Source of the DNA: Catellatospora methionotrophica
GTDB lineage: Bacteria; Actinomycetota; Actinomycetes; Mycobacteriales; Micromonosporaceae
DNA length: 64,000 bases
Direction of reading: 5' to 3'
Assembly (NCBI RefSeq): GCF_011297335.1
Contig: NZ_JAAOTJ010000003.1
Coordinates: 1 to 64,000, forward strand
How positions within the stretch are numbered: the first letter of the stretch is position 1; each line of letters begins with the position of its first letter. Shown in pieces: positions 6,382-13,608 of this stretch. Below the pieces are notes generated by a model that searched no databases, was not told the origin of the DNA, and saw nothing but the letters and a program-made list of their open reading frames with translations. The translations under genes were made by a program, and so were the position numbers.

Positions 6382-6999
6382 GTGAGCGCCGCCATCATCG
6401 ACACCGCACACGGCGACGGCGACGTCGTCAGTCTCACCTTCGACGACGGGCCCAACCCGGCCGACACTCCGGCTCTGCTCGACGTGCTGCGCCGCCACGA
6501 CGTCACGGCCGTGTTCTGCCTCCAGGGCGACCAGGCCGAACAGCACCCCGAGCTGGTACGCCGCATCGCCGCCGCCGGGCACACGCTGTGCAACCACGGC
6601 ATGCACCACGACGACATGAGCTCCTGGACACCCGAACAGATCGCCGCCGACCTCCGCGAGACCAGCGCCGCCATCCGCCGCGCTCTGCCGGGTGCCCGCA
6701 TTCCGTACTTCCGTGCACCGTATGGCGCCTGGGGCGGCAGCCCGGCCGTGGCGGAGGCACTAGGCATGCGGCCACTGGGCTGGCGGCTGGCCGTCGCCGA
6801 CTGGGAGACCCCCGGCACCGGTGAACTGGTGCGCCGCCTGCGGGCGGGCATCACGCCCGGCGCGGTGGTGCTCCTGCACGACGGCGGCGGCGACCGCAGC
6901 CAGACCGTCGACGCCGTCGACCTCGTCATCGCGTCCTTGAAGGCCCGCCGCTGGCGCTTCACCCAACCCCGGCCCGACTGGCCGCAAGCCCCGGCCTGA
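6382..6999 (+). CDS. Polysaccharide deacetylase (NodB domain, carbohydrate esterase 4)
   Basis: The 205-residue protein is essentially one NodB domain without a signal peptide. Motif 1 is 'TFDDGP' (catalytic and metal Asp at 21-22); the metal-binding His pair is in 'HGMHH' (72 and 76); 'RAPYG' (near 118) and 'LLHDG' (near 168) are the later motifs. Family members remove N- or O-acetyl groups from chitin, peptidoglycan or acetylated xylan. The neighbouring xylan genes make acetyl-xylan possible, but the lack of an export signal argues against an extracellular role. GTG start; it converges with the FxSxx genes on the other strand. Confidence 0.85.
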   Translation: MSAAIIDTAHGDGDVVSLTFDDGPNPADTPALLDVLRRHDVTAVFCLQGDQAEQHPELVRRIAAAGHTLCNHGMHHDDMSSWTPEQIAADLRETSAAIRRALPGARIPYFRAPYGAWGGSPAVAEALGMRPLGWRLAVADWETPGTGELVRRLRAGITPGAVVLLHDGGGDRSQTVDAVDLVIASLKARRWRFTQPRPDWPQAPA

Positions 7000-7006
7000 G
7001 CCGGGA

Positions 7007-8326
7007 TCACGCTGCGGCGACCGCCTTGTTCCGGTCCAGCCACTGGCGGTGTGAGGCGCTCAGTCCCTGCTCGGCCGCGGCGACCACCGCCGCGTCCAGC
7101 GGTTCGGCGAGCAGTTCGTCGGTGCGCTGCCGTAGCCCGACAGCGAGCAGCCGTCCCGCGCCGGTGAGGGCGCCGGATGCCTCGACCGCGCCGAGTCCCC
7201 GGTCGACCTGCAGGCGTGCTTCGGCGAACCGTGAACTGGCCAGTGCGGTGAGGCTGTCCTCGGCGCGCAGCGCGCGCCAGGCGTCGGCGACGCCGACGAA
7301 GGCGTAGACGCCCTGTAGGAGCCCGGCGAGCGGGCGCGGGTCGGTGCGCCACGGCGCGAAGTAGCGGCGGGTGTCGGCCGGGTCGGTCAGCGGGGTGATG
7401 TCGAGCAGGCCGCTGAGTTTCGAGTGCTGGAACTCGTGCACCATCGTGACGGCGAGGTCCGCCGCCGATGCGGGGCGGGTGAGGCCGAACGCGCCGAAGG
7501 CGTGCCGGACGGTGGCGCTGCGGGCCGAGTGCGGATCGGTCTGCGCCAGCGGCACCAGCACCCGCAGCCCGGCGGCGAGTTCGGCGGCACGTCCGGGCAG
7601 GTGCCGGGCGAGCATCGTCCAGGCCTGGGCGAACACGGCCTGCCACTGGGCGACTTCGGCGTCGTCGAGGCGGTTGGCGGGCGGCGCGTGGTGGCCGTGG
7701 CGGTAGGGGTCGACGTCGTCGAGGGCTACCCCGGGCGCGTCGGGGGCGGTGAGCCGCCGGACGGGCTGCCATCCGGGCAGGTCGTCGCCCTGCCACCGGG
7801 GCTCGCCGTCGCGCAGGTCCGCGGGAATCCGGAACGGGTCGCCGCCCGCGGTGACGGAAAGGCGGCCGTCGTCGGCGGTGAGCCGCGCGGCGGTGGCGTC
7901 ACCGACGGACAGCGCCCCCAGGCCGGGTACGGACAGCACGCCGTCGCGTACCGGCACCGGCAGGTCGGCCGGCACGCCCGCGGCGGCGGCGGCGACGGCG
8001 GCGAGGCCGCACAGTTGGCTGAAGTCGGCGGCGGCCGCGACGCCGCGTTCGGCGGCGCGCACGGTGATGCCGGTCCAGGAGCCGACCAGCGGTGCGCTCA
8101 GCACCTCGGCGAACCGGTCCGGGGCGGCCCGGCGGGCGCGTTCGAGGGTGTCGGCGATGGTGTCGCGTTCGGCGGTGCCGCCGGGCCAGTGGCGCAGCAG
8201 GTGGCCGATGAGCAGGAGATGGCGGCTGAGCTGCGCGGCCCGGAGTGCGGTCACGGCCTGAGGGCCGCCGTCCCCGCGGGCGAGCGCGGCGAACGGTGCG
8301 GGGCCGAGTTCGTGGTAGGTCGTCAA
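7007..8326 (-). CDS. HEXXH-motif protein of the FxSxx-COOH system (putative peptide hydroxylase)
   Basis: About 439 residues. The hallmark is 'VHEFQHSKL' with His297 and His301, followed by an acidic and aromatic stretch; the N-terminal half is Ala/Leu-rich and mostly helical. Proteins of this type accompany FxSxx-COOH radical SAM loci, and public annotation names the family HEXXH-motif or aKG-HExxH-type peptide beta-hydroxylase, implying a metal- and 2-oxoglutarate-dependent modification of the precursor. That activity is inferred here. A TTG start at 8326 fits best: GGAG lies five bases upstream and it overlaps the radical SAM stop as TTGA, so the two are coupled. The frame continues open upstream but only as a shadow of the radical SAM gene. 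Confidence 0.82.
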   Translation of the reverse strand: MTTYHELGPAPFAALARGDGGPQAVTALRAAQLSRHLLLIGHLLRHWPGGTAERDTIADTLERARRAAPDRFAEVLSAPLVGSWTGITVRAAERGVAAAADFSQLCGLAAVAAAAAGVPADLPVPVRDGVLSVPGLGALSVGDATAARLTADDGRLSVTAGGDPFRIPADLRDGEPRWQGDDLPGWQPVRRLTAPDAPGVALDDVDPYRHGHHAPPANRLDDAEVAQWQAVFAQAWTMLARHLPGRAAELAAGLRVLVPLAQTDPHSARSATVRHAFGAFGLTRPASAADLAVTMVHEFQHSKLSGLLDITPLTDPADTRRYFAPWRTDPRPLAGLLQGVYAFVGVADAWRALRAEDSLTALASSRFAEARLQVDRGLGAVEASGALTGAGRLLAVGLRQRTDELLAEPLDAAVVAAAEQGLSASHRQWLDRNKAVAAA

Positions 8327-9579
8327 GGCTTCTCCGGGGCGGCGGCGCGGCGCAGGTCGGCGGCGACGCGGGCGGACACGTGGTCGATGAGCCGTCTCAG
8401 GTCCTCGCAGTACACCGACGGGTGGCGAAAACCGGTGCCGGGCCGGTAGCGGTGGGCGTAGTGGCCGCCGCCGCAGACGGGTACGACCGGGCAGGACAGG
8501 CAGGTGGCGGATAGGGCGCGCAGGCCGAGCTGGCGGGCGATGACGCCGGGGTCGGCGAGGGCCGCGTCGAGTTCGTCGTGGCGTACGTCCAGGCCGGTGG
8601 CCGCGGCGCCCGGGTAGGCGGATTTGAGCGCGTCGACCTGTTCGAGGGCGCCGTCGGACTCGACGACCAGCATTCCGGCGGGGCTGAGCCCGACCTGTTC
8701 GGAGCTGCCTGCGCCGCCGAGCAGCAGGGCGAGGATGTCGTCGAACAGCCGGATGCGGACCGGTTCGCGGCGGCCGTACCAGTGGTCGAAGACGGCGATC
8801 AGCCAGTCGGCGTAGGGGGTCGTGCCGGGTCGGGCGTGCGGTGGCGGTGCGCTGGTGTTGGCGTGCGGGAGCAGGAAGTCGATCGTCGGCGGTGTGAAGG
8901 CCGACAGTGCCTCGAAGGTGCCGACGGGGTCGGTGTCGGGCGACACGGTGGTGAGGATCCCCGCGTAGACGGACCGGTTCGCGGGTTCGCGCAGCAGGTC
9001 CAGGGCGCGGGCGACGGCGGCGTGGCTGCCTCGCCCGGCGTGGGTGCGGCGGTGCCGGTCGTGGTCGGCTTCGGTGCCGTCGACGCTGACCCCGACGGCG
9101 ATGTCCAGCTCGCGCAGGCGGGTGACGACGGGGCGGGTCAGCAGCACGCCGTTGGTCTGCATGCCGACCAGGGTGCGGGTGGCGGGCGGCATCCGGGCCC
9201 GCAGGCGGCCGACGAGCCGTTCGATGCGGTCGAGACCGCACAGCAGGGGTTCGCCGCCGTGCAGGATCACCCGGACGTGACTCAGGTGGTGGGTTTCGGC
9301 GTGCCGGGCCAGGTTGTCGGCGGCGGCCTGCCAGACGTGGTCGGGCATGACCGCCGGGCGGTCGCGCCAGCTCTGGTCGCTCGACTCGTAGACGTAGCAG
9401 TAGTCGCAGGCGAGGTTGCACCGTTGATGGATTTTGAGGATCAGGTCGCGGACCGGGGTGGGCCGCCAGCCGGCGGCGTGCAGCCGCTGCGGGTCGAGCT
9501 CGGCGTACGGCCACGCTGCCGCCGCCTGCTGCGCCTGCCGCAGGGCCATCGTGCTGCCGCCGGCCGACGGCATGGTCAC
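8323..9579 (-). CDS. fxsB: Radical SAM peptide maturase, FxsB family
   Basis: The 418-residue enzyme has the radical SAM cluster motif in 'CNLACDYC' (Cys54, Cys58, Cys61), which binds the [4Fe-4S] cluster and S-adenosylmethionine, then 'LHGGEPLL'. A Cys-rich C-terminal segment ('CLSCPVVPVCGGG' and a later 'YCEDLRR') resembles SPASM-type auxiliary cluster ligands. It matches maturases that act on small peptides ending in FxSxx. The GTG start at 9579 overlaps the stop of the precursor gene as GTGA; an ATG six bases further in is an alternative. The HEXXH gene follows with a four-base overlap, so precursor and both tailoring enzymes are coupled. Confidence 0.9.
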   Translation of the reverse strand: MTMPSAGGSTMALRQAQQAAAAWPYAELDPQRLHAAGWRPTPVRDLILKIHQRCNLACDYCYVYESSDQSWRDRPAVMPDHVWQAAADNLARHAETHHLSHVRVILHGGEPLLCGLDRIERLVGRLRARMPPATRTLVGMQTNGVLLTRPVVTRLRELDIAVGVSVDGTEADHDRHRRTHAGRGSHAAVARALDLLREPANRSVYAGILTTVSPDTDPVGTFEALSAFTPPTIDFLLPHANTSAPPPHARPGTTPYADWLIAVFDHWYGRREPVRIRLFDDILALLLGGAGSSEQVGLSPAGMLVVESDGALEQVDALKSAYPGAAATGLDVRHDELDAALADPGVIARQLGLRALSATCLSCPVVPVCGGGHYAHRYRPGTGFRHPSVYCEDLRRLIDHVSARVAADLRRAAAPEKP

Positions 9580-9764
9580 GAAGTGAACGACTGGAACGCC
9601 GAGATGATCCCGTCGGGGTCGTCGAGCGCGCCGATCACGCGGCGGGCCGCTCGGGCCAGTGCGTCGTCACCGCCCTGGATCACTTCTAGAACAGGACGGT
9701 CGGCCAGGTCCACCAGCGGCGCCCACGTGACTGCCGCCCCTGACGTGTTTGCAGCGTCCACCAT
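9576..9764 (-). CDS. fxsA: FxSxx-COOH-type precursor peptide
   Basis: A 62-residue peptide directly upstream of, and coupled to, the radical SAM gene. It has an acidic, Ala-rich leader with 'VTWAPLVDL' near the N-terminus and ends in 'ISAFQSFTS'. Family precursors end exactly in F-x-S-x-x; here the F-Q-S core is followed by three residues (F-T-S), so the canonical motif is shifted by one position, or a second F-x-S (F-T-S) sits at the very end. The radical SAM enzyme is expected to crosslink or modify this tail. The ATG at 9764 has GGGGAG close upstream. Confidence 0.8.
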   Translation of the reverse strand: MVDAANTSGAAVTWAPLVDLADRPVLEVIQGGDDALARAARRVIGALDDPDGIISAFQSFTS

Positions 9765-9953
9765 TGCTCCCCATCACTGCGCTACGGTGGGCGGCCGGTC
9801 GGCGACATTCGGGTGCTTGGCAGCGCGCCCTGGAATCCCAAGATAGAGCCCGGAAGGGCGCTGAACTGTGCCAATCTTCCTGTTTGACAAAAATTGGCGA
9901 TCATCGACTCAGGTCCGCGTCCTATCTGGACGCGTTCGGCGCGCACGCGACCG

Positions 9954-10277
9954 TCAGGGGCTGTTCGCCCGCGCGTGCCTCCACCGCGCCTGGAACTCGG
10001 CGACCAGCACGGCCTCGTCCAGCGGGGCACGCGAGCGCCTGTTGAGCTCGACGATGATCGAGTGGTATTTCGGCCAGGACAGCAGGTAGGCGCCCCGCAG
10101 TGCGGCCCGGTAGGTCTCGTGTGAGACGACCTCCAGCGAGCGGTCCCGGTAGATGCTGGTGCTGACCACCCGCCCCGACGGGCATCCGGCGTTGAGGTAG
10201 AGCTCGTGCAGAGCGTCCACCAGGTCACGGAAGGGTCCCGGCGGGACGGTGTCCAGGCCAGGTCTGCTGATGTGCAC
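9954..10277 (-). CDS. Small helix-turn-helix-like protein near the FxSxx locus
   Basis: About 107 residues from a GTG at 10277, preceded by GGAG nine bases upstream; ATG starts further up extend the frame only into poorly conserved sequence. The body ('GPFRDLVDALHELYLNAG' and 'VSHETYRAALRG') resembles the N-terminal HTH-like module of many actinomycete NTPase/TPR regulators, in which the dipeptide HE in 'SHET' starts the recognition helix. Here the module stands alone. It lies on the same strand as the precursor gene, 189 bases upstream, and could regulate it; this is inferred from position only. Confidence 0.6.
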   Translation of the reverse strand: MHISRPGLDTVPPGPFRDLVDALHELYLNAGCPSGRVVSTSIYRDRSLEVVSHETYRAALRGAYLLSWPKYHSIIVELNRRSRAPLDEAVLVAEFQARWRHARANSP

Positions 10278-10431
10278 TGGGCGGCTCCGCACGGATGATG
10301 GCAGGGAGGTCGGACGGCGAAGACGCCGACGGTGGTGACACACCGTGGCGCCTCGTCACCTCCCGTGAGCATATCGATGGAAAGAAGCTTTATCCATCGA
10401 CATCCATCCCTGGCCTCGGCATCCGGCGGGC

Positions 10432-10962: not shown

Positions 10963-13608
10963 ATGGCGCAACTGTCGCAGGACCCCGACGGCGCGCCCCG
11001 GACCGCGTTCACCGCCGCCCTCGCGCAGCTGCGCGGTCGCCTGCCCGACGTCTCCGACGAGGTGCTGGCCCGGCGGGCGAGCCTGACCGCGCTGCCGTCC
11101 GGGCGGCGGGTCGCCGTCAATGCGCGACGGCTCGGCGAATGGCTCCACGGCCGCTCGGTGCCCCGCGACTTCGAGCAGGTGCACGCGCTCGTGCAGGCCG
11201 TCGAGACGGCCGCGGGCGGGTCGGCCACGAGCCAGTCGCTGCAACGGTGGCGCCAGCTGTGGCGGGCCGCGCAGGAGCAGCGCACCGCCGTACGCACCAC
11301 CCCGGCCGCCGGTGCCGAGCTGGTGGTCGGCCGTGCCCCCAGCGACGCCGCGTCACTGCGCCAACGCCCGGAGCTGGCCGGGGCGATCGATGACGCGCTG
11401 CGCGACCCCGCGGTGCGCCAGGTGCTGCTGACCGGACCGGGCGGGTCGGGCAAGTCGCAGCTCGCGGCTGCGGCGTTCCACCGGGCGCGCGGCGGCGGGG
11501 GCCTGTTCGCTTGGGTGTCGGCGTCGTCGCGGCAGTCGCTGCTGGCCGGATACGCCCGGGTCTGGCGGGCGGTCGCGGGCGGTGTCCTGGACGCCCCCGC
11601 CGCGCCGGGCGGGCGTCCGGCGCACCCGGACGGCTACGGCCACGACGAGGAGACCCAGGCAGATCTGCTGGTCGCGTGGCTGCGGTCCACGCCGCAGCGG
11701 TGGCTGGTGGTGCTCGACGACGCCGACGACCCGGCCGACCTGGACGGGCTGTGGCCGATGGGCGAGCACGGCCGCACCACTGTGACGACCCGCCGCCGCG
11801 ACGCGCTGGTGCTGCGCCCCGCCGCACGGGTCGTGCAGGTGGGTATGTTCACCGGCCCGGAATCGGTGGACTACCTGCGCAACCGCCTGTCGCTGGACCC
11901 CTCGGCCGGACGCGGCCAGCCCCCGCCCGACGGCGAACTGGCCGAGCTGGCGGCGGCGCTGGGGCACTTCCCGCTCGCCCTGTCACAGGCCGCGGCGTTC
12001 CTCATCGACACCGGCACGGACGTGGCGGCATACCGGCGGCTGCTCGACGACGAACGCGAACGGCTCGCCGACCTGTTCCCTCCGTCGTCACCGGCCGACG
12101 GTCACGACCGTACGGTGGCCAGCACCTGGCAGCTGGCCGCGCAGCGGGCCGCGGCGCTGGCCAAGCCCGGCACCGCCCAGCGGATGCTGGAGCTGGTGTC
12201 GCTGCTGGCCCCGGTGGGCGTGCCGCAGGACCTGCTGCTGACCGGCGCGGCCCGGACGTGGGTCGGCGCGCAACGCCGGGAGGCGCTGGCCGCGCTGCGG
12301 GCCCTGCACCGGCTCAGCCTGCTCACCCACGACGCGCCGACGGTGGCCATGCACGCGCTGGTGCAGCGCGCGGTGCGGGAAGCCGTCCCGGAGTCCGAGC
12401 TGCCCGCGCTGGCCCGCACCGCCGCGGACGCGCTGGACGAGGCCTGGGCGACCCCGGACCCCGCCCTGCCGGTGGCCGCGCTCTACGACAGCCTGCTGGC
12501 GCTGCGGCGGGCGGCCGGTGAACACCTGTGGCGCCCCGGTATGCATCCGGTGCTGCGGCGGCTCGCCGAACACCTGATGGCCGTGGGCCGGACCGGCGCG
12601 GCCCGCGACACCGCGGGAGAGCTGCTCGAACAGGCCCGCGAACGGCTCGGCGGCGAGCACCGCGACGTGATCTTCCTGGCGGCGCAGCAGGCCCAGGCCG
12701 TCGGCGAGCTCGGCGACCCCGCCACGGCCCACGCCGCACTGGCGGTCCTGCGGCGTGACGCCGAGCGGCTGCTCGGCGCGGACGATCCGGACACCCTGTG
12801 GATACGCCAGCGCGAGGCGCTGCAGCCGTTCGAGCTGGGCGCACCCGCCACGGCCCTGGCGGAGATGGTGCCGCTGCACGCGCGGGCCGCGGCCGTGCTC
12901 GGCGACGACCATCCGCTGACACTGTCGACCCGGCGGTACGTGGCGCTGTGCCGGGGCATGTCGGGTGATCCCGCCGGAGCCAGGCAGTGGTTCACGGCCC
13001 TGGCCGACGAGCTGGCGCAGCAGCGCGGCCCGGCCCATCCGGACACCCTCAGCACGCTGTCGGACCTGGGACGGTGGATCGGCGAGACCGGTGACGCCGA
13101 CGGGGCCGTCGACACCTACCAGCGTGCGATGCTGGGACTGGCCGCGGTGCACGGGCCGCTGCACCACGACACGCTGACCGCCCGGCACAACCTGGCCTAC
13201 TGGCGCGGCCTGGCCGGGCAGCCGACGGCGGCCGTCGAGGAGTTCAGCGTGGCCACCCAGGACGCCGAACGGGCCCTGGGGCCGCGGCACCCGACGACGC
13301 TGACGTTCCGCACCAACCTGGCCTACTGGACCGGGCTGGCCGACGATCCGGCCGCGGGCATGGCGGCCCTGGCGGAGCTGCAGATCGTCGTCGAGCAGGT
13401 GTTCGGGCACACCCACCCCCGGGCGTTGCGCACCCGGCAACTGCACGCGCAGCTGCGCCACCGCGGCGGCGACGCGGCGGGCGCGGTCGGCGAACTGACC
13501 GGCGTACTGACCGACATGCGGGCCGTACAGGGCGACGGCCACCTGCGCACCGTCGAGGTCGCACAGCTGCTCGCCACGTGGACGTCGGCACCGGACCCGG
13601 TGGGGTGA
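10963..13608 (+). CDS. fxsT: FxSxx-COOH system NTPase/tetratricopeptide protein
   Basis: The 881-residue protein has an HTH-like N-terminal module (about 14-85, 'RRLGEWLHGRSVPRDF'), then a STAND/NB-ARC ATPase. The P-loop is 'GPGGSGKS' (158-165) and Walker B is within 'RWLVVLDDADD' (about 245-255). A winged-helix-like region follows to about 500, then tetratricopeptide repeats from about 560 to the end, with repeated 'HPLTLSTR', 'HPDTLSTLSDL' and 'HHDTLTARHNL' units. Proteins of this build are named the FxSxx-COOH system TPR protein. It is probably a signal-sensing switch protein, divergent from the peptide operon. TAGAAT at 10921 may be its -10 box. Confidence 0.82.
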   Translation: MAQLSQDPDGAPRTAFTAALAQLRGRLPDVSDEVLARRASLTALPSGRRVAVNARRLGEWLHGRSVPRDFEQVHALVQAVETAAGGSATSQSLQRWRQLWRAAQEQRTAVRTTPAAGAELVVGRAPSDAASLRQRPELAGAIDDALRDPAVRQVLLTGPGGSGKSQLAAAAFHRARGGGGLFAWVSASSRQSLLAGYARVWRAVAGGVLDAPAAPGGRPAHPDGYGHDEETQADLLVAWLRSTPQRWLVVLDDADDPADLDGLWPMGEHGRTTVTTRRRDALVLRPAARVVQVGMFTGPESVDYLRNRLSLDPSAGRGQPPPDGELAELAAALGHFPLALSQAAAFLIDTGTDVAAYRRLLDDERERLADLFPPSSPADGHDRTVASTWQLAAQRAAALAKPGTAQRMLELVSLLAPVGVPQDLLLTGAARTWVGAQRREALAALRALHRLSLLTHDAPTVAMHALVQRAVREAVPESELPALARTAADALDEAWATPDPALPVAALYDSLLALRRAAGEHLWRPGMHPVLRRLAEHLMAVGRTGAARDTAGELLEQARERLGGEHRDVIFLAAQQAQAVGELGDPATAHAALAVLRRDAERLLGADDPDTLWIRQREALQPFELGAPATALAEMVPLHARAAAVLGDDHPLTLSTRRYVALCRGMSGDPAGARQWFTALADELAQQRGPAHPDTLSTLSDLGRWIGETGDADGAVDTYQRAMLGLAAVHGPLHHDTLTARHNLAYWRGLAGQPTAAVEEFSVATQDAERALGPRHPTTLTFRTNLAYWTGLADDPAAGMAALAELQIVVEQVFGHTHPRALRTRQLHAQLRHRGGDAAGAVGELTGVLTDMRAVQGDGHLRTVEVAQLLATWTSAPDPVG

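Follow-up and report, generated by a model that had tools for sequence, protein, structure and literature searches.

The question raised by this locus is whether a precursor peptide that ends F-Q-S-F-T-S, rather than stopping two residues after the Ser of F-x-S as in the canonical FxSxx-COOH motif, may be crosslinked at a different site from its characterised relatives, as the original prediction for this DNA had proposed. The locus lies on a stretch of 64,000 nucleotides from the soil actinobacterium Catellatospora methionotrophica (NZ_JAAOTJ010000003.1, positions 1 to 64,000; hereafter the window), which is part of an 8.4-Mb draft genome (G000). The features needed here are as follows, with the evidence for each in brackets.

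6382..6999, plus strand: left flank gene, presumably polysaccharide deacetylase-like (flank comparison)
6981..10427, no strand: reduced fxs island between conserved flanks (congener comparison)
7007..8326, minus strand: stand-alone aKG-HExxH-type protein, 439 aa (TIGR04267, conserved residues, structure matches)
8323..9579, minus strand: FxsB radical SAM/SPASM enzyme, 418 aa (TIGR04269, cysteines, structure match)
9576..9764, minus strand: 62-aa precursor of the FxsA type with the tail FQSFTS, the ring probably at F57-Q58-S59 (family, alignment, profile)
9954..10343, minus strand: 129-aa open reading frame, the N-terminal stub of an upstream FxsT-like NB-ARC/TPR protein, body missing (congener comparison)
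10963..13608, plus strand: right-hand NB-ARC/TPR gene, FxsT-like but under the cut-off, 286 < 300 (NF040586 family score, genus survey)

The precursor and its two enzymes

Translation of 9576–9764 (minus strand) yields a 62-residue precursor whose last residues are IISAFQSFTS-stop, in agreement with the tail originally read from the DNA; three residues follow the first F-x-S unit and none the second, and “one extra residue” and “overlapping F-x-S units”, the two descriptions then offered, both fit these letters. Because the precursor is 74–79% identical to those of three congeners, with dN/dS of 0.09–0.26 in the same comparisons and synonymous changes among its tail codons, the open reading frame is not a chance one. 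Its score against TIGR04268, the FxSxx-COOH precursor model, is 17.4 bits, below the curated cut-off of 28, which is also missed by the canonical-tailed controls L066 (26.1) and L149 (13.4). A Pfam scan of the precursor gave no match, and a genome-wide profile search found no second precursor, the next best match having E 0.09.

The assignment of the locus to the FxSxx-COOH peptide family was right, FxsB scoring 461 bits against TIGR04269 (curated cut-off 370) and the HExxH protein 163.5 bits against TIGR04267 (cut-off 40). Cysteines C54, C58, C61, C360, C363, C369 and C391 of FxsB (CxxxCxxC plus SPASM-type) are conserved in all 61 aligned sequences, and the enzyme matches the ChlB structure 9gm3 by sequence at 268 bits; a genome-wide search found no second FxsB over the cut-off, and PADLOC gave two weak viperin matches only for FxsB (44 and 24 bits) and no match for seven other proteins. 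In the HExxH protein, H297 is kept in 42 of 43 aligned proteins, E298 and H301 each in 41, and W326, R327, R331 and P332 in 41–42. It matches the structures 22nu (E 7e-51) and ChlH 8s5f; a Pfam scan gave no match, and no second HExxH match was found in the genome at E 0.01.

Tails and gene junctions across related loci

Relatives were gathered through FxsB, the best 80 of 152 confirmed relatives being used; among these best 80, the closest to the window FxsB come from records named Catellatospora. G010, G003 and G005 were taken as C. vulcania, C. coxensis and C. sichuanensis (loci L012–L014), coordinates being equal. When a 14-row precursor alignment was used as the query, 117 of 350 Micromonosporaceae genomes matched at E ≤ 0.01, many weakly. 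The resulting locus set comprises 112 stretches (80 relatives, 31 further stretches and the window), with an FxsB match in 104; an iterated precursor profile gave 63 candidates adjoining FxsB and found no precursor in 43 of the 104 FxsB-positive loci. One candidate (L035, 4085–4393) was discarded as spurious, leaving 62 precursor rows from 61 loci, a set biased towards kin of the window. L088, in which the motif is absent at the end, was excluded from the tree and from the table of i+2 residues, and aromatic-x-[SN] is absent from the tail in L072 and L077.

If the pattern aromatic-x-[SN]-x-x-end is the sole criterion, 22 of the 62 rows count as canonical. Among them are six members of the window's group (L017, L018, L019, L022, L024 and L136), which qualify through a second unit only; in the remaining 16 there is a single terminal unit, except that the core of L047 is repeated. 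The unit NFNSFI occurs twice in L047 (4659–4862), and an FQN unit twice in L132 (3920–4195).

The window's group comprises 31 loci with 27 distinct tails, all of which passed a tail-extraction rule that itself requires F-x-[SN]. Three residues follow the first F-x-[SN] in five loci, four in another five, five in 15 and six to nine in the other six; a tail of exactly two residues is found in none of the 31. The ending FQSFTS is common to the window, L012 and L013, the third congener (L014) has FQSAVS, and Hamadaea tails read FQSFTSA, FQSFTSS and FQSFTSAS. In the FxsB tree, 29 of the 31 group loci, all extended-tailed and with the window among them, fall on one branch with SH-aLRT 99, L139 and L145 lying outside it; this tree, of 60 rows, was made by a quick method with SH-aLRT as its only support measure, and carries long-branch warnings for L148, L149, L153 and L077. 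It had been proposed that an extra residue in many close homologues would make the tail an ordinary subfamily trait, and since all 30 other group loci carry three to nine residues, that is what it is. The departure from the canonical motif is thus real, but it is not special to this locus; as judged from these sequences, the unusual peptide ending is normal within its own branch of the family.

The table of i+2 residues (61 precursor rows) has Ser in 38 rows with an HExxH gene in the stretch and in 3 without, and Asn in 3 rows with and 15 without, two HExxH-bearing rows having no motif; the association is confounded by phylogeny (Actinomadura FDN) and by the limits of the stretches.

As regards the junctions between the genes, the overlaps are as first described: the GTG start of FxsB overlaps the TGA of the precursor (GTGA), a 4-base overlap that places the precursor directly beside fxsB, and the TTG start of the HExxH gene overlaps the FxsB stop (TTGA). 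The GTG start of FxsB is provisional, since two codons further on there is an ATG in the same frame, and L014 has ATGA where the window has GTGA. Translational coupling of precursor and FxsB in the window is plausible. The fixed stoichiometry that had been suggested finds no support, because a 4-base precursor/FxsB overlap is possible in only 13 of the 31 loci (all four Catellatospora included), with some other overlap in four and none in 14, Hamadaea L015 and L026 among these.

Crosslink register and predicted chemistry

In order to place the canonical unit within an extended tail, a profile was built from eight canonical-tailed precursors outside the window's group (L066, L080, L086, L148–L151 and L153). 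In all 31 loci the Phe of this profile aligns with the first unit (F57-Q58-S59 in the window) and in none with the second, several of the scores being low (5 to 44 bits). The TIGR04268 match likewise stops in the window at the first-unit Ser, model position 42 of 44, as it does in L017, L018, L019, L022 and L024, all of which also end F-x-S-x-x; the sixth double-unit relative, L136, gave no match to this model, and in L014 and L137 the match extends to position 44. (That F-x-S-x-x forms the last model positions is read from the family name.) Throughout the 14-row precursor alignment F57 and S59 stay unchanged; F60 and S62 vary. Given the profile placement, the TIGR04268 register and this invariance, the first unit is canonical by descent.

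It follows from the same comparisons that the changed crosslink site originally envisaged is unsupported. That the only crosslink should lie at the terminal F60-S62 is very improbable: F60-T61-S62 is a legal F-x-S unit, and in six of the 31 relatives the second unit does end as F-x-S-x-x-COOH, but the residues kept are F57 and S59, the profile never chooses the second unit, and that unit is incomplete in 17 of the 31 loci.

A rather different proposal is that FxsB closes both F57-S59 and F60-S62, turning FQSFTS into a C-terminal double cyclophane. F or Y stands at position 60 in 25 of the 31 loci and S at position 62 in 15, with both in 14; 15 tails are five residues long, as though position 60 held the canonical distance from the end, and because the second unit fits by C-terminal position in the six relatives just mentioned, there is room for a second ring. 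Duplicated units are present in L132 and L047, and a title cited in the available part of PMC12636437 calls ChlB a “multiple cyclophane synthase”. Even so, the loci with an incomplete second unit include the congener L014 (FQSAVS), and no significant association ties aromatic-60 to S/N-62 (Fisher p 0.17 over loci, 0.34 over distinct tails), so that two rings in the window peptide seem distinctly unlikely.

The reading preferred here is that the three genes form an FxsB (triceptide) RiPP trio, with one cyclophane at F57-S59, beta-hydroxylation by the HExxH protein, trimming of the leader, and F-T-S as an extension. The family of MscB, IPR026335, is one that we take to be the FxsB family. MscB forms C4(Phe)–Cβ(Ser) links, and triceptide links run from residue i to i+2 (from the accessible text of PMC11002830). 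By analogy, FxsB of the window would make a Phe–Ser i/i+2 cyclophane. Judging from relatives, the leader of the precursor would be recognised by FxsB, which would then link the ring of Phe57 to the C-beta of Ser59 to give the three-residue cyclophane F57-Q58-S59; a beta-carbon near the ring would next be hydroxylated by the HExxH iron/2-oxoglutarate enzyme, and the leader would be removed by a protease. Residues 60–62 (F-T-S) would then be a C-terminal extension, the length and letters of which drift within the subfamily. We put the probability of this scheme at roughly 0.8; its chemistry is predicted, and it is built upon gene identities, intact catalytic motifs, a register of the canonical motif and a subfamily branch that are established.

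The part played by the HExxH protein deserves separate comment. HExxH is the zincin signature, and the protein might accordingly be taken for a metallopeptidase that frees the C-terminal peptide. Cleavage of the peptide by the HExxH protein is indeed what is said in section 24 of PMC7159879. Such a peptidase is improbable, given that TIGR04267 is currently described as an aKG-HExxH-type peptide beta-hydroxylase, and that ChlH hydroxylates Asp and His beside a cyclophane (excerpted text of PMC12636437). Hydroxylation of the cyclophane peptide is therefore what we infer for the HExxH protein, by analogy with ChlH; cleavage nevertheless keeps some room, because PflC and PosC, HEXXH enzymes too, cut the backbone oxidatively according to the same excerpt.

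Among known systems, the FxsB/MscB triceptide systems (TIGR04268, TIGR04269) are alike in having a radical SAM/SPASM enzyme that adjoins a small precursor with a C-terminal aromatic-x-Ser; the window differs in having three residues after the first F-x-S instead of two, and a precursor under the curated cut-off. With ChlB/ChlH, where the radical SAM enzyme is fused to the aKG-HExxH enzyme, it shares both enzyme types, each matching a solved structure by sequence, but it has two separate genes and a different core peptide. The locus is a genuine RiPP cluster of a type already known, and belongs to a subfamily whose tails are lengthened.

A reduced island and its missing partners

At one Catellatospora site the fxs island is found in three states: 19.4–20.0 kb long in G010, G003 and G005, about 3.4 kb in the window (where it holds the precursor, FxsB, the HExxH gene and the 129-aa FxsT stub), and about 58 bp in G002 and G004. 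About 16 kb is thus absent from the window site relative to the three congeners. The G010 island, the one subjected to a domain scan, has NACHT and WD40 in one frame, an upstream FxsT (NB-ARC/TPR; 556 bits against NF040586) and a downstream second FxsT (834 bits) with EAD2 and VMAP-M0; three further G010 open reading frames in the part absent from the window (158, 537 and 285 aa) matched nothing in Pfam or NCBIfam and could be spurious. The islands of G003 and G005 align with that of G010 at the DNA level. The 129-aa stub of the window, for which a Pfam scan gave no match, shares 72–78% identity with the beginning of the upstream FxsT in L012–L014, and at least that FxsT has therefore been lost; the second has probably gone too, to judge from its presence in Hamadaea and others. 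The empty-site congeners G002 and G004 have other FxsB systems elsewhere (L148–L151), with the canonical tails YASTI, FDSRI and, twice, FQSSI, and in L150 and L151 a single frame encodes both FxsB and HExxH.

All 30 other loci of the window's group have at least one FxsT-profile match in the stretch (the weakest best score being 303 bits, in L133), the profile having been built from the gene at 10963 and not separating true FxsT from other NB-ARC/TPR proteins. That gene (10963..13608) was itself considered as the system's FxsT and rejected: it has a match in every one of the 11 Catellatospora genomes, including five in which FxsB has none, and is therefore taken to lie outside the system. A search for a coupled AP-ATPase/TPR gene at the window locus found only the stub, near this genus-wide gene. 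FxsT-type genes above the NF040586 cut-off occur in nine of the 11 genomes, and since these include G007, G008 and G009, which have no FxsB match, FxsT alone is no marker of the system. The window's own genome has an unlinked full-length FxsT at G000:C1:293786-296227 (882 bits), about 29–30% identical to either island FxsT; in the 16 kb around it neither FxsB nor HExxH was matched, and the best precursor candidate (E 0.13) was unconvincing.

Section 24 of PMC7159879 predicts radical SAM crosslinking and a role, as toxin or as signal, that is coupled to an AP-ATPase. The VMAP ternary conflict peptide-processing systems of that paper, as its available text describes them, have counterparts in the window's HExxH protein, FxSxx-type peptide and radical SAM enzyme, to which congener G010 adds the NB-ARC/TPR protein with EAD2 and VMAP-M0; unlike them, the window locus has no intact FxsT that could be found.

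One might suppose, from the FxsT stub and the missing 16 kb, that with its FxsT and NACHT-WD40 neighbours gone the locus is a functionless remnant. For fxsB and the HExxH gene taken together, the window branch has an omega of 0.33 (bootstrap 0.24–0.43), slightly above the 0.26 of relatives; it is below 1, however, and the difference (−0.04 to 0.20 by a counting method with 200 resamplings) is not separable from zero, a comparison with little power if the loss was recent. The two enzyme genes look constrained, without clear relaxation, and as all three RiPP genes are open with their catalytic residues in place, decay seems unlikely. A natural uncoupling, in which the trio shed its NTPase partners (two FxsT and the NACHT-WD40 protein) and yet was kept by selection, is a tentative suggestion about which we remain doubtful.

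As to what this means for the family, the two-residue end implied by the name FxSxx-COOH is not general, a Micromonosporaceae branch having three to nine residues beyond its first F-x-[SN]; the tails of the congeners, FQSFTS and FQSAVS, together with the F-x-S-F-x-S-x-x relatives, are natural substrates for the question of one ring or two. More curious than the tail is that the peptide genes stayed when their large partner genes went. Comparing a single site in its full, reduced and empty forms would be one way to learn whether the peptide depends on its NTPase partners, and if the uncoupling were true, in contrast to the close coupling to an AP-ATPase that has been published, the modified peptide would either have a job of its own or be served in trans by an unlinked FxsT.
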